In this document: piece by piece, positions 16,894 through 31,043 of the stretch
How the letters are laid out: every line of letters starts with the position of its first letter
Numbering within the stretch: the first letter of the stretch is position 1
The notes under the pieces: model-generated
Told to the model about the DNA's origin: nothing
Database searches by the model: none
Seen by the model: only the letters and a program-made list of their open reading frames with translations
Translations under genes and position numbers: made by a program
Assembly (NCBI GenBank): GCA_026398255.1
Contig: JAPLTG010000018.1
Span: 1-33,382, forward strand
Source: Verrucomicrobiota bacterium
Lineage (GTDB): Bacteria; Verrucomicrobiota; Verrucomicrobiia; Chthoniobacterales; Terrimicrobiaceae
DNA length: 33,382 nt
Reading direction: 5' to 3'

Positions 16894-19101
16894 ATGGCCG
16901 ACGCAACAGTCACATTCGCCGCCAAAGACCTCAACCTCGGGTCCACGATCGAGAAACTCAAAAAGGAACTCGGGGCCACACAGAACGCTGCGCAAGGAGC
17001 CTCCAAAGGCTTCGACCTTTCTTTCGGCAAGATCGGCCTCGCCGCTGGCGTGGCCGGTGCCGCCGTGAAGGCAGGCATGATGGCGGTCGAGGGTGCGACC
17101 GCCGCCGCCCGCGCGGTGGTGGATGGATTTGGCAAAGCCATCGATCTCGGCGGCAAGCTCACGGATCTTTCCTCACGCACCGGCGAAACGGCGGGCAGCC
17201 TGATGGTGCTCCAGCGCGCTTTTGAAAACTCCGATGTCGGTGCGGACAAGGTCGGCTCCACGATTAACAAGTTGCAGAAATTCATGGCCGAGGCCGCTGC
17301 CGGTGGTGCCGAGCAGACCTCCACGATGCAGGCGCTCGGCATCTCGATGAGCGACCTGGCGGGAAAAACTCCCACCGAGCAGCTCCAAGTCTTCGCCCAA
17401 AAGATCGCCGGAATTTCCGATCCCGCCCAGCGCGCCCGCGCTTCGATGGAAGTCTTCGGCAAATCCGGCGGCGAACTCCTCCCTCTCCTCAATAATTTTT
17501 CCAACGAACTCGAAACCGCGAAGGGCCAACTCGGCTCGATGCCTGGCGTGATGGACCGAACGGCCAAGGCGCTCGACGACCTGGGCGACAACTACAAGGC
17601 GATCCAGGCGAAAACCATGGAGTTCGCCGCTGGCTTCCTCGAGGACGCGCTCCCCGCGCTCAATGCTTTCGTGGCCTCCCTATCCGGCGTCGATGCCGCC
17701 AGTTTCGGCCAATCCCTCATGAAGCAAGTCATGAGCGTGGCGGATTTCCTCGTCGGCGCTTTCAAGGCCCCGATGCCTGCGATTGAGGCGATCGGCCTCG
17801 GCCTCCTCGCCGGGGTGAAAATCGCGGGCAACAACTACCTCAACGCCCTGATCGACGCGGGCCGGTTCGCCAAGGCGTTTTTCTCATCCGATCTCCCTGG
17901 CGTGATCTCCGGCGTGCTCGGCAACACGCTCCTCAAGGTCTTTGTGGATGGCGCAAAAGCCCTCCTCGATGGAATAAACAGCGTGATCAAAGCCTTCGAG
18001 ACATGGCTCGGGGCGGCGACCGGCAATGTGGCCGATTTTTTCGCGACCAAATTCTCGGGAGTGATGAATGCGGTCGCCAAGGATTTCCAAGCCGCGATGT
18101 CCGACCCCATCGGATTCGTGAGCGGCAAGCTCGACAGTGCGCTGGCGGCCGTGATGAACAACGGCGGCGACACCTTCCAGACCTCGTTCGACAAAGCCGG
18201 TGGCAGCGCGCTCGACAAGATCAGCGCCGGTCTCGGCGCAGCTTCGGAGGAATACGGCAACAAGATCGTGGACGGCTCGATCCGCGCCAAGGATGAGTTC
18301 GACAAACTCGTGGGCACCCTCGGAAAGAGCGATCAGGACTTCTTTGGGGCGAATGAAACCGCCACGGCCGCCGCCGAGAAATTCGGCGAGGTCAAAGCCG
18401 TCGGCACCAAGCTCCGCGAAGATTTCGAGAAATCGACCGCCGAAGCAGGGAAAGCAAAAGACAACACCTCCGCCGCCGCCGCCGAGGCGGCCGCCCTCGC
18501 TGGCAGTTTCAACAAAGCCGAAGGCTCCTCCAAAAAAATCAAAGACGACATGAGCGAGTCGGCGAAGCTCATGAAATCCATCGCCGACGCCGAGGGCAAA
18601 GAGGGCATCGACAAAGGCGGCAAGCTCGCCAAGCGCGCCCAGGACCAGGTCGCCCGGGGAGACTTTGAAGGTGCGCGCAAGACCGCCGGGAAGATCGCCG
18701 AAAACGAATCCCAAGCCGCCATCACTGGCACAGGCAAAAGCCGCGACCGCCGCAACATCGCCGACATCGGCAAGGACTACGGCCTCAACCAAGGCCTCGG
18801 CGAAAGCTCGAGCGGCTTCCGCGAGCGCATTCGCTCCGCCCGCGAGGATGGCGTCTACAACGACTTTTCCAAAACCGCCAAGCCCGCCTCTGGACTCGAG
18901 GCGATGAAAGCCAAGGGCTCTCTGAAAGACGAACTCGCCGACCGCCGCGCCGGAGTGGACAAGCCCGGCCAAGACGGATCTCCAACCCCCACGAAATCCG
19001 AAAAATCTTCCGGCAAGCAAGGCCTTGAGAAGCTTGTAGAGGACATTTTCAAGCTCGTCGAAAAAATCGAACCCCGCCTCCCCGTCGCCGCCCTCGTTTA
19101 A
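16894..19101 (+). CDS. Tape measure protein
   Basis: The product has 735 residues and is the longest here. It begins with coiled-coil text ('DLNLGSTIEKLKKELGATQNAAQGAS'), then a Gly/Ala-rich hydrophobic stretch ('GKIGLAAGVAGAAVKAGMM'). The region about 120-240 has 'MQALGISMSDLAGKTPTEQLQVFAQKIAGISDPAQRARASMEVFGKSGGELLPLL', a widespread tape-measure motif. Hydrophobic segments near 290-350 may enter the host membrane. The C-terminal half is rich in Ala, Lys and Glu. It sets tail length and helps DNA entry. Position after the G/GT pair is decisive. The short length predicts a short tail. Confidence 0.9.
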   Translation: MADATVTFAAKDLNLGSTIEKLKKELGATQNAAQGASKGFDLSFGKIGLAAGVAGAAVKAGMMAVEGATAAARAVVDGFGKAIDLGGKLTDLSSRTGETAGSLMVLQRAFENSDVGADKVGSTINKLQKFMAEAAAGGAEQTSTMQALGISMSDLAGKTPTEQLQVFAQKIAGISDPAQRARASMEVFGKSGGELLPLLNNFSNELETAKGQLGSMPGVMDRTAKALDDLGDNYKAIQAKTMEFAAGFLEDALPALNAFVASLSGVDAASFGQSLMKQVMSVADFLVGAFKAPMPAIEAIGLGLLAGVKIAGNNYLNALIDAGRFAKAFFSSDLPGVISGVLGNTLLKVFVDGAKALLDGINSVIKAFETWLGAATGNVADFFATKFSGVMNAVAKDFQAAMSDPIGFVSGKLDSALAAVMNNGGDTFQTSFDKAGGSALDKISAGLGAASEEYGNKIVDGSIRAKDEFDKLVGTLGKSDQDFFGANETATAAAEKFGEVKAVGTKLREDFEKSTAEAGKAKDNTSAAAAEAAALAGSFNKAEGSSKKIKDDMSESAKLMKSIADAEGKEGIDKGGKLAKRAQDQVARGDFEGARKTAGKIAENESQAAITGTGKSRDRRNIADIGKDYGLNQGLGESSSGFRERIRSAREDGVYNDFSKTAKPASGLEAMKAKGSLKDELADRRAGVDKPGQDGSPTPTKSEKSSGKQGLEKLVEDIFKLVEKIEPRLPVAALV

Positions 19102-19104
19102 ATT

Positions 19105-19779
19105 ATGCCGACCCAAGTTTATTCCTCCACATCCGGGGCCACGAGTGACGGGTGGTATCTACAACCAAACGAAACGATCACAGAATATCCGTCCGGTTTA
19201 ATAAAAACGACGCGCCTTTACATTCATCCGCAAAAACAAAACAACGGCCCATCATTGAATGGTAATGTTTTCCCAAAACCCGAGATCAGAATAAACGACG
19301 CGGGTTTTTCAGAAGCGGTAGTAAACATCTACACATCTGCAGGTTCTGGAAGCAGTAACATTGCAAGCAGGGTCTTCCCGTCAAAAATTCTAAAAACCGG
19401 CGAGGCGATTAAAGAAACGGTGAAGCTAAAGACCGTAGAAATAGATACTCCAGATGGCCCGGGCACAATACAGGTGCCTTATTTATTTCGAGAAACATTC
19501 AGCTTTATCTATCTCGCCGAAAAGGTAACGAAGTCCTTGGTTCAATCCAGCAGTTCGACCTACACCCCGTCGATCCCGAGCGGTGGCGCGACCATTCAAG
19601 TGATGCAAAGGCCATTCGCCGCCGACCCCTACGGCTTAGCGTGGATCATGACAGACTACCAAGCCACCGATTACGGCGACATTCAGGAAATCGTTTATTC
19701 TTACGAAGCTGTCGGCAAGTTGTATCTTTATGTAAACAACACCGGCATGCAGGATTTAACCCCTCCCACGCCGCCATGA
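19105..19779 (+). CDS. Distal tail or tail-tip protein of unknown family
   Basis: The product has 224 residues, starting MPTQVYSSTSGATSDGWYLQ. Beta-rich text with many Ser, Thr and Tyr. Midway stands 'LKTGEAIKETVKLKTVEIDTPDGPGTIQVPYLFRETFSFIYLAEKV', and the end is 'QATDYGDIQEIVYSYEAVGKLYLYVNNTGMQDL'. Position just after the tape measure is that of distal tail proteins, but I cannot match a family. Composition is AT-richer than the tape measure gene. It overlaps the next gene by four bases. Confidence 0.6.
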   Translation: MPTQVYSSTSGATSDGWYLQPNETITEYPSGLIKTTRLYIHPQKQNNGPSLNGNVFPKPEIRINDAGFSEAVVNIYTSAGSGSSNIASRVFPSKILKTGEAIKETVKLKTVEIDTPDGPGTIQVPYLFRETFSFIYLAEKVTKSLVQSSSSTYTPSIPSGGATIQVMQRPFAADPYGLAWIMTDYQATDYGDIQEIVYSYEAVGKLYLYVNNTGMQDLTPPTPP

Positions 19780-20105
19780 GTCTCAGCATCCCCGTCGATT
19801 TTACAAAGCTCACGGGCAAGAGCAAAGAAGCCGGAGGCTATCCCACTCAGATCAAGGCCGCCGACCTGCAAAAAAATTTTGTCTACTGCGCACTCGACAC
19901 GCCCGACGGCATGGTCGAAGCCAGCACCGGCCCCGGCGGTTTGCCGACTCGCAAATTAAAAATCCTTGCCGGCAATAACCAAGGCCAATTTCTTTACTGG
20001 AACGGAAAAGAATACGCCCCATTTTCGCAGCCGCCAAGTTCGGGCACTTGGATTCTCGGCGCGGTGGATGGCGCGGTGGATTGGCTCGCCACGGAGGAGT
20101 GTTAA
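19776..20105 (+). CDS. Hypothetical tail protein
   Basis: The product has 109 residues from the ATG at 19776, which overlaps the previous stop. It reads MSLSIPVDFTKLTGKSKEAG, then 'DGMVEASTGPGGLPTRKLKILAGNNQGQFLYWNGKEYAPFSQPPSSGTWILGAVDGAVDWLATEEC'. The 'W......W' and Gly-rich turns suggest a small beta domain. Possibly a tip or adapter component. Family unknown. Confidence 0.58.
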   Translation: MSLSIPVDFTKLTGKSKEAGGYPTQIKAADLQKNFVYCALDTPDGMVEASTGPGGLPTRKLKILAGNNQGQFLYWNGKEYAPFSQPPSSGTWILGAVDGAVDWLATEEC

Positions 20106-20106
20106 G

Positions 20107-20727
20107 ATGACCCTCGGCCGCACATCCTCCGGAGCCATCAAAATCAAGACCGACGGCGGCCTCCGCGCTGTGAATTGCGCGTGTTGTTGGTGCCCTATCA
20201 CTGAAGCGCAATTTAATGCTATACGCTACGGGTTCACAACAAACATCTCAGCGACTCAAGGCATAGGAACAATAGTTCCTGTAATTCAACTTTATGAGTA
20301 TTCATTCCAAAATCCAACAGAGGATAGGGAAGAGATTTTTGGAGCACTTGAGAATCAAAATAATGTGGGAAGCCAAGGAGGGGCTTATAAATATATTGTT
20401 TCTACAACTGGCCCATTTACTTGCATTGTAGATGGCCCACCTGGAAGTGGAATAACGTATCCAGTTACTTACTATAACCAAAATACAGAATACCTGTCTC
20501 TGTATTGGTTCTATACCGCTTGGATACCTAACAATCCACAGATCGCGCCTACATATTTTCTGAATCAAAGTAACGGAGCTACATATTTAAGGACAGAAAT
20601 TGAATGCCCAAATGATGGCGGTATCCCTAATGCTGTAACCAAAGATTATAAGCAATCTGGAGACCTTTGTGGAGAGCCATTGTATAAATTGGTTCTTGAT
20701 GGGGCGTCATGGCCTCCTCAGCCATGA
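20107..20727 (+). CDS. Hypothetical AT-rich tail-region gene
   Basis: The product has 206 residues from ATG 20107, just after the previous stop. The start 'MTLGRTSSGAIKIKTDGGLRAVNCACCWC' carries four Cys close together. The rest is beta-like and rich in Tyr, Asn and Gly ('PVTYYNQNTEYLSLYWFYTAWIPNNP'). From about 20205 to 20690 the DNA is strikingly AT-rich compared with both sides, with many A/T third positions, while the first 90 bases match the local style. That points to a recent gene or domain acquisition behind a retained 5' end. Function unknown, perhaps a receptor-contacting part. Confidence 0.58.
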   Translation: MTLGRTSSGAIKIKTDGGLRAVNCACCWCPITEAQFNAIRYGFTTNISATQGIGTIVPVIQLYEYSFQNPTEDREEIFGALENQNNVGSQGGAYKYIVSTTGPFTCIVDGPPGSGITYPVTYYNQNTEYLSLYWFYTAWIPNNPQIAPTYFLNQSNGATYLRTEIECPNDGGIPNAVTKDYKQSGDLCGEPLYKLVLDGASWPPQP

Positions 20728-21527
20728 CTCGCCACGGAATAGTCGCAGGGTTTCCGCGCTCTGGAACTTCTGCCGCAATGCGATTATTACGCGATTCAGG
20801 AATCCCGATCTTTTACCAAGGCGAGCACTTCGACGAGTTTAACCCGCAAGGATATTTCGAGGCTCCGCAAATCATGGCAGCTTGCATGAATGGAAGTGCT
20901 GACAAGGTGCTCGACTCACTCGATGGACTAACTTTCAAGATGCCACTCCCGCATCACTTGGAAAAACTGCCCGCAAATGGAAGAGAGTTTTTTGTCATCT
21001 GGATGGATCGTTACCCAATGGAGTCGGCAATTAGTTTGAGAAAGCTCAATTTTGCTCGCGGCGCAAAGTTTCAGCCCGATCCTGAAACATTAGCCGCCAA
21101 CATTGAACGAGTCCGCGCCCGAGCATTGGAATACCTTACGGCAACACCAGCTTTCCATATTCTGCGCGTCCCACAATCCGAATTGGATAGCCATGTCCCT
21201 GCTATGATTGCGCACCTCCGCCCTGTGTCTGAGACGCTGAGCCATCCACTACCAACCGCCCGCGAAATGCTCTCGAACTTCGGCTCTGCCGCGCACCGCT
21301 TCGCTCGCGCAGGATTTGCCACAACATCACCCAAAGCCCTCGCCACCCGCGAAGCGACCTGCCGCGCCTGTCCCGAATGGGACGCCGCCGCGCTGAACGC
21401 CACCGGACGCTGCCGCAAATGCGGGTGCTCGACCTGGGCCAAGCTCCGCATGGCCACCGAATCCTGTCCGATCGGCAAGTGGAAAGCCGTCTCAGCCGCT
21501 CCCGAAGCCACTCGGAAGCCCGAGTGA
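20724..21527 (+). CDS. Sulfotransferase-like protein with C-terminal zinc ribbon
   Basis: The product has 267 residues. I chose the ATG at 20724 (ATGA overlap) over 20709. Residues 5-22 (GIVAGFPRSGTSAAMRLL) are a P-loop of the kind sulfotransferases use to bind PAPS, and 'VIWMDRYPMESAISLRK' (91-107) fits the 3'-phosphate site with R and S. The C-terminus (208-255) has six Cys in 'CRAC', 'GRCRKCGCS' and 'SCPIGKW', a zinc-ribbon module seen in other phage proteins. It would transfer sulfate from PAPS to an acceptor, perhaps a tail fibre or host surface glycan. Location between tail and fibre genes suggests fibres. Function is inferred. Confidence 0.68.
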   Translation: MTRHGIVAGFPRSGTSAAMRLLRDSGIPIFYQGEHFDEFNPQGYFEAPQIMAACMNGSADKVLDSLDGLTFKMPLPHHLEKLPANGREFFVIWMDRYPMESAISLRKLNFARGAKFQPDPETLAANIERVRARALEYLTATPAFHILRVPQSELDSHVPAMIAHLRPVSETLSHPLPTAREMLSNFGSAAHRFARAGFATTSPKALATREATCRACPEWDAAALNATGRCRKCGCSTWAKLRMATESCPIGKWKAVSAAPEATRKPE

Positions 21528-30058: not shown

Positions 30059-30312
30059 AAGCCACGCTGGAGTTCACCCTGCCCGACGAACGAACCGAAC
30101 ACATCTGCGCCGTAAAAGGCATGGACACCGTTTTAATACTGGATGACCTCCTTAACGAAATCCGCTCATTCCTTAAACATGGCGCCGGAGAGTTCCGCGA
30201 GTGGCGAGACGATGAAGGCGTCACGCAAAAAGGGTGCGATCACACCCTCGAAAAAGTCCGCTCCTACATTTGGGAACTAAGAAAAGACAACGAAATCCCC
30301 GACCTGCCATGA
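30055..30312 (+). CDS. Small hypothetical protein
   Basis: The product has 85 residues, starting MKATLEFTLPDERTEHICAV. The pattern of a short strand, 'MDTVLILDDLLNEIRSFLKHG' helix and 'EKVRSYIWELRKDNEIPDLP' end is widespread in small phage proteins of unknown role. It overlaps both neighbours by four bases, so it is part of the same late transcript as the endolysin gene. Confidence 0.62.
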   Translation: MKATLEFTLPDERTEHICAVKGMDTVLILDDLLNEIRSFLKHGAGEFREWRDDEGVTQKGCDHTLEKVRSYIWELRKDNEIPDLP

Positions 30313-31043
30313 CACCAATCAAGAAATGGAAAAAATGGATGGCTGTCGGGTGCTCGCATGGAGACCAAATCGACCCAGAAGCACGAAAGGCCGTGCTGAC
30401 ATTCAAGGAACGATGGAAGCCCGACACCACATTCCACCTCGGCGATTTTCTCGACCTCGCAGCCTTTCGCTCCGGTGCCGTCAGCGATCCGAACTCAAGC
30501 GACCGAGCTGCCAGTGTGAGCGATGACCTCAGCGCAGGAATTGATTTCCTGCACGAACTCCGGCCACAGCACATCCTTTTCGGCAACCACGAAGCCCGAC
30601 TCTACAAGCTCGCCGCCTCGCCAAATGCGCTTGCAGCACACGCCTCCACGCTCACCATACAAGCCATCGAGGAGACCGCCAAGAAACTCAAGGCGCGCCT
30701 CTACCCATACCACATCCGCAGCTACGCCGAACTCGGAGGAACGAAATTCCTTCATGGCTACATGTTCAATGTCCAAGCCATCCGCGACCACGCCGAGGCT
30801 TTTGGGAGCGATATCGTGATGGCGCATTTGCACCGAGTCGGCAGCGAACGCGCCCGCACCCTCGATGGGTCAACAGGCCACTGCACCGGCATGCTCGCCC
30901 GATTCGACATGGAATACGCCAGCACCCGCCGCGCAACCCTTGCATGGTCCCAAGGCTTCGCCTACGGCCACTACTGCGACACCGCTCTCACCGTGAATCT
31001 ATGCGAAAGAAAATCCGGCCACCCGTGGCTGCTCCCGCTATAA
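30309..31043 (+). CDS. Calcineurin-like metallophosphoesterase
   Basis: The product has 244 residues. Motifs are in the usual order: 'AVGCSHGD' (12-19, S16-H17), 'HLGDFLDL' (43-50, D46), 'LFGNHEAR' (90-97, N93-H94), 'FLHGYM' (147-152, H149) and 'MAHLHR' (171-176, H173 and H175). These bind two metal ions. In most relatives the first motif is D-x-H, and here the Asp place is Cys15, which is odd. It may act on nucleic acid ends or nucleotides. Its role in the phage is unclear. It overlaps the gene before it by four bases. Confidence 0.8.
   Translation: MTPIKKWKKWMAVGCSHGDQIDPEARKAVLTFKERWKPDTTFHLGDFLDLAAFRSGAVSDPNSSDRAASVSDDLSAGIDFLHELRPQHILFGNHEARLYKLAASPNALAAHASTLTIQAIEETAKKLKARLYPYHIRSYAELGGTKFLHGYMFNVQAIRDHAEAFGSDIVMAHLHRVGSERARTLDGSTGHCTGMLARFDMEYASTRRATLAWSQGFAYGHYCDTALTVNLCERKSGHPWLLPL

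Follow-up and report, generated by a model that had tools for sequence, protein, structure and literature searches.

In the tail region of a phage genome, we found a gene (20724-21527, forward strand) whose product joins a sulfotransferase-like domain to a C-terminal six-cysteine ribbon, and the enzyme domain of this fusion lies in what appears to be an exchangeable cassette. The domain very probably belongs to the PAPS-dependent sulfotransferase superfamily, as judged from its sequence and its modelled fold. The stretch analysed here in full (33,382 nucleotides, hereafter the window) corresponds to positions 1-33382 of a contig of 38,860 bases in a 2.6-Mb assembly. Because the two ends of the contig have 141 bases in common, the genome is circular and measures about 38.7 kb, and PHROG matches on it include a replicative helicase, terminase, portal, head maturation protease, major head protein, tape measure, fibre-like proteins, endolysin and integrase. 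A metallo-phosphoesterase gene (30234-31043) is located between the endolysin and the integrase. The fusion gene sits after the tail tape measure (16894-19101) and before the fibre-type proteins (22097 onwards), and these matches bear out its placement between tail-tip and fibre genes in the preliminary description of this DNA. The phage is of freshwater origin, and its assignment to the Verrucomicrobiota host of the assembly comes from binning only. Related terminases, with 30-34% identity, are present in three other genomes of the genus, and no annotated phage matched the head-tail region in a Megablast search.

The frame is open from 20709 to 21527 (forward strand; 272 aa). The ATG at 20724 forms an ATGA overlap with the stop codon of the preceding gene, and relatives such as L091 start at a corresponding position; the 267-aa version (20724-21527) is therefore the likelier gene, with 20709 as the alternative start. 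The entire fusion protein has counterparts with 87-93% identity in two viral contigs (L001 and L002), and dN/dS between close copies is 0.11-0.14; the frame is therefore unlikely to be open by chance, and the enzyme domain is under purifying selection. An enzyme of this kind fused to a ribbon had been read from the sequence at the outset, and both parts are indeed present in one protein, with the loop GFPRSGTS at 20748-20771 and the six cysteines at 21360-21467.

The sulfotransferase-like domain spans 20724-21251 (forward strand). In an alignment of 11 phage and bacterial homologues (A1), the invariant residues are V, G, PRSGTS, D, NP, GY, E, K, R and S. The 5'-PSB loop, which in sulfotransferases binds the 5'-phosphosulfate and is of the PRSGT or PKSGT type, is represented by GFPRSGTS, in which G and PRSGTS belong to the invariant set. 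The 3'-PB element, which binds the 3'-phosphate of PAPS, is represented by R-x7-S (21009-21035), in which the arginine and the serine (R96 and S104 of A1) are both invariant. Between these elements lie a D-x2-NP-x-GY-x-E motif (20832-20861), in which D, N, P, G, Y and E are invariant and D and E may act as catalytic bases, and an invariant lysine (K72 of A1; 20937-20939), which known sulfotransferases suggest as the candidate catalytic lysine. The residues that bind the cofactor are kept in the window domain, whose enzymatic activity is putative.

Compared to the Pfam families Sulfotransfer_3 (PF13469) and Sulfotransfer_1 (PF00685), the window domain is alike in the PRSGT loop, the lysine and the R...S pair but is divergent, shorter on the C-terminal side and fused to a ribbon. 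On its own, the window protein scores 14.2 bits against Sulfotransfer_3, under the curated cut-off of 27 bits, and its viral relatives reach 19.7 and 20.4 bits; the bacterial homologues exceed this cut-off, and one of them also exceeds that of Sulfotransfer_1. When the A1 profile was searched against the PDB, the 26 distinct sequences matched with E values of at most 1 were without exception sulfotransferases (best E 1.5e-4). The nearest cellular homologues are sulfotransferase domains that end phosphodiesterase-TPR proteins of Verrucomicrobiota, Planctomycetota and Acidobacteriota, with 24-31% identity to the window domain in A1; these bacterial proteins are often about 900 aa long, with AlkP-type and TPR parts, and are without the ribbon in the loci read.

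The ribbon module, which consists of a helix and the six-cysteine ribbon (21264-21494, forward strand) and also forms the downstream DNA anchor of the cassette, is the constant part of the protein. It was found in at least 80 viral contigs (a scan for ribbon relatives returned 168, of which 80 were kept), with protein identity of 73-88% across all ribbon loci compared. The pattern C-x2-C-x13-C-x2-C-x-C-x12-C has the same spacing in 82 of 82 ribbon ORFs, a set that includes the window gene twice (as the window and as L081), which upholds the six-cysteine ribbon initially described in this protein; the cysteines, and only these, suggest that it is zinc-binding and zinc-ribbon-like. The ribbon matches PHROG 13558 (E 1.1e-9; residues 207-258 aligned to positions 21-68 of the 69 in the profile) and, at 10.8 bits and hence under the curated cut-off of 27, the related Pfam family DUF6171 (PF19668), on which no literature was found. 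In cultured phages, namely Synechococcus phage S-SCSM2R and Leptospira phage LnoZ_CZ214, weak relatives of the ribbon stand alone near fibre or baseplate genes and have no enzyme domain, and a search of the full fusion protein against annotated phages matched its ribbon part only, in 5 records.

The sequence that precedes the ribbon is highly variable in kind. The N-terminus is short in 66 of the 82 ORFs, is another domain of about 190 aa in 11, and is a sulfotransferase in 5 (the window gene again counted twice); a dedicated scan added L091-L094, with L092-L094 encoding an identical protein. Because most ribbon genes are without any enzyme, sulfation does not seem to be needed for the core role of the ribbon. 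The domain of about 190 aa that takes the place of the sulfotransferase (L005:2215-3075, L067:1471-2256 and relatives) contains an invariant FPSFHFFPQSR and no PRSGT, shows no profile similarity to the sulfotransferase domain, and gave no Pfam match of note and no PDB profile match. Its model has a mean pLDDT of 57 and yields weak, low-confidence sulfotransferase matches, with E values of 0.05 and above, and we therefore assign the domain to no family.

The exchangeable character of the enzyme domain is apparent from the comparison of the window DNA with 68 ribbon loci that are without the sulfotransferase and share both anchors. The upstream anchor (about 20080-20200) is matched in 75-98% of these loci and the downstream anchor (about 21280-21490) in 75-100% over about 21280-21480, and the DNA between the anchors matches the window in 0 of 68. 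The enzyme thus lies in a cassette (20200-21240, forward strand) in which the variable block takes in the 3' part of the upstream gene together with the 5' part of the ribbon gene; in the window, the latter part encodes the sulfotransferase domain. Homologous exchange between the anchors would be the simplest reading of this pattern. Wherever the contig is long enough, the locus keeps its place, with the upstream tail genes on one side and the fibre genes on the other. The upstream tail-region gene (20107-20727, forward strand) has a constant Cys-rich start (MTLGRTSSGAIKIKTDGGLRAVNCACC), which lies in the upstream anchor, and in most relatives only about its first 30 residues match; with this start (CACC) and a highly variable remainder, it possibly encodes a variable tail-tip protein. 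A separate enzyme gene was sought in the upstream gaps of more than 1 kb in L018 and L068; these contain nothing other than variants of the upstream gene. Upstream of the first anchor, the DNA at 19120-20000 likewise has no match in any of the 68 relatives.

Relatives of the sulfotransferase domain that lack the ribbon occur in other phages as free-standing small genes. Three of them (L096, L097 and L101) are flanked by head closure Hc3 and DNA ejection genes, and two (L098 and L102) by portal and scaffold genes; L099, L105 and probably L103 lie downstream of the gene for the major head protein. L100 has a tail protein gene on one side and an internal virion protein gene on the other, and L109 lies among recombination, methyltransferase and helicase genes; the setting of L095 is ambiguous. 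Since much of any phage genome consists of structural genes, a location near them argues only weakly for a virion substrate. In L103-L107, sulfotransferase genes lie near major-head-like genes, and in L104 and L107 the frame extends through an additional C-terminal domain. Another viral contig encodes a 565-aa protein of the GRSGTS type that has other domains as well (L108:3866-5563).

The expectation that such an activity would be unusual in a virion module holds in part, given these relatives inside other virion clusters and the phage sulfotransferases already reported. In the portions of the reports available to us, a Sulfotransfer_3 gene is described in OM43 phages and in Synechococcus phage S-SRM01, with its function stated as unclear (PMC10580990), and phage sulfotransferases are also listed among auxiliary metabolic genes (PMC8290583). 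The same portions describe no ribbon fusion or cassette for the OM43 and S-SRM01 enzymes, and our literature search, which was thin on subscription papers, found no description of either. Accordingly, the ribbon fusion and the cassette appear to be new, phage sulfotransferases as such being already known.

The predicted fold complements the family profile and the active-site motifs in supporting a sulfotransferase-like domain. An AlphaFold2 model of the fusion protein, built from an 87-row alignment, has pLDDT mostly above 90 across this domain, with the ribbon portion at low confidence. In Foldseek searches against the PDB, a check that the preliminary description had proposed, sulfotransferases are the best matches, with human TPST1 first (E 9e-5); the tyrosylprotein sulfotransferases TPST1/2 have a similar loop of the GVPRSGTT type, although they share only about 13-19% identity with the window domain, and the fold does not imply the substrate. 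Because VIA-align gives a Z-score of 11.1 to TPST2 and likewise to guanylate kinase, the fold alone is indecisive between a sulfotransferase and a P-loop kinase, the assignment named beforehand as the one that would count against the sulfotransferase. Despite the tied Z-scores, we reject the kinase as highly improbable: a pattern search of the fusion protein found no Walker A GxxxxGK[ST], the 5'-PSB loop, the 3'-PB arginine and serine and the conserved lysine are all present, and the PDB profile matches comprise sulfotransferases exclusively. It could also be that the fold is kept in a domain that is inactive or serves in binding only, as might be suggested by RYP in the window copy where the relatives in A1 have RDP, and by the replacement of the domain elsewhere with one that resembles sulfotransferases only weakly and is without PRSGT. 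The intact PRSGTS, lysine and R...S pair and the low dN/dS argue against such a loss of activity, which we consider improbable.

With respect to function, we tentatively favour, at a probability of about 0.45, a PAPS-dependent sulfotransferase-type domain that is carried on the constant tail-region ribbon, acts late and, docked through the ribbon, sulfates a tail-tip or fibre protein or a host surface polysaccharide; we hold this whole account, docking and tail or fibre acceptor included, with far less certainty than the enzyme class. Placement in the tail cluster suggests that the enzyme would be made late in infection, and the ribbon would dock it on a tail or fibre partner common to all these phages. 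The domain would then use host-made PAPS to modify a tail-tip or fibre protein, which is slightly favoured, or, close behind, a host surface polysaccharide, and swapping of the cassette may alter surface recognition or protection. The host assembly contains one APS kinase and two PAPS-reductase-type matches; given the APS kinase, PAPS can be made and is probably available. The host assembly also has a Sulfotransfer_3 match of its own, just above the cut-off (G000:C28:8457-8810). Alternatively, the gene could be a moron in a late cluster whose product sulfates an envelope polysaccharide or lipid of the host, excluding other phages or aiding release, with the ribbon fusion a mere outcome of recombination at a conserved anchor. 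The integrase makes a lysogenic role possible, the free-standing ribbon-less relatives, one of which adjoins a ferredoxin gene classed as a moron, are in line with this scenario, and the nearest bacterial homologues belong to phosphodiesterase-TPR proteins, which are not known virion proteins; however, the gene lies inside the tail cluster and not in the lysogeny region. We regard a moron as quite possible, without expecting it.

A broader generalization would be that freshwater phages swap enzyme domains on a constant tail ribbon via two anchors, that one of these domains sulfates the tail or fibre as a variable modification of the virion, and that related enzymes do likewise for heads and tails elsewhere; taken as a whole, this picture appears unlikely. 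Because relatives of the domain occur among the clustered virion genes of several unrelated phages, sulfation during virus assembly is a testable idea. A tail-cluster copy that is fused to a ribbon and exchanged as a cassette, together with the relatives in virion clusters, points to virions or the host surface, late in infection, as the places to look for sulfate. This matters since the function of phage sulfotransferases is stated as unclear (PMC10580990).
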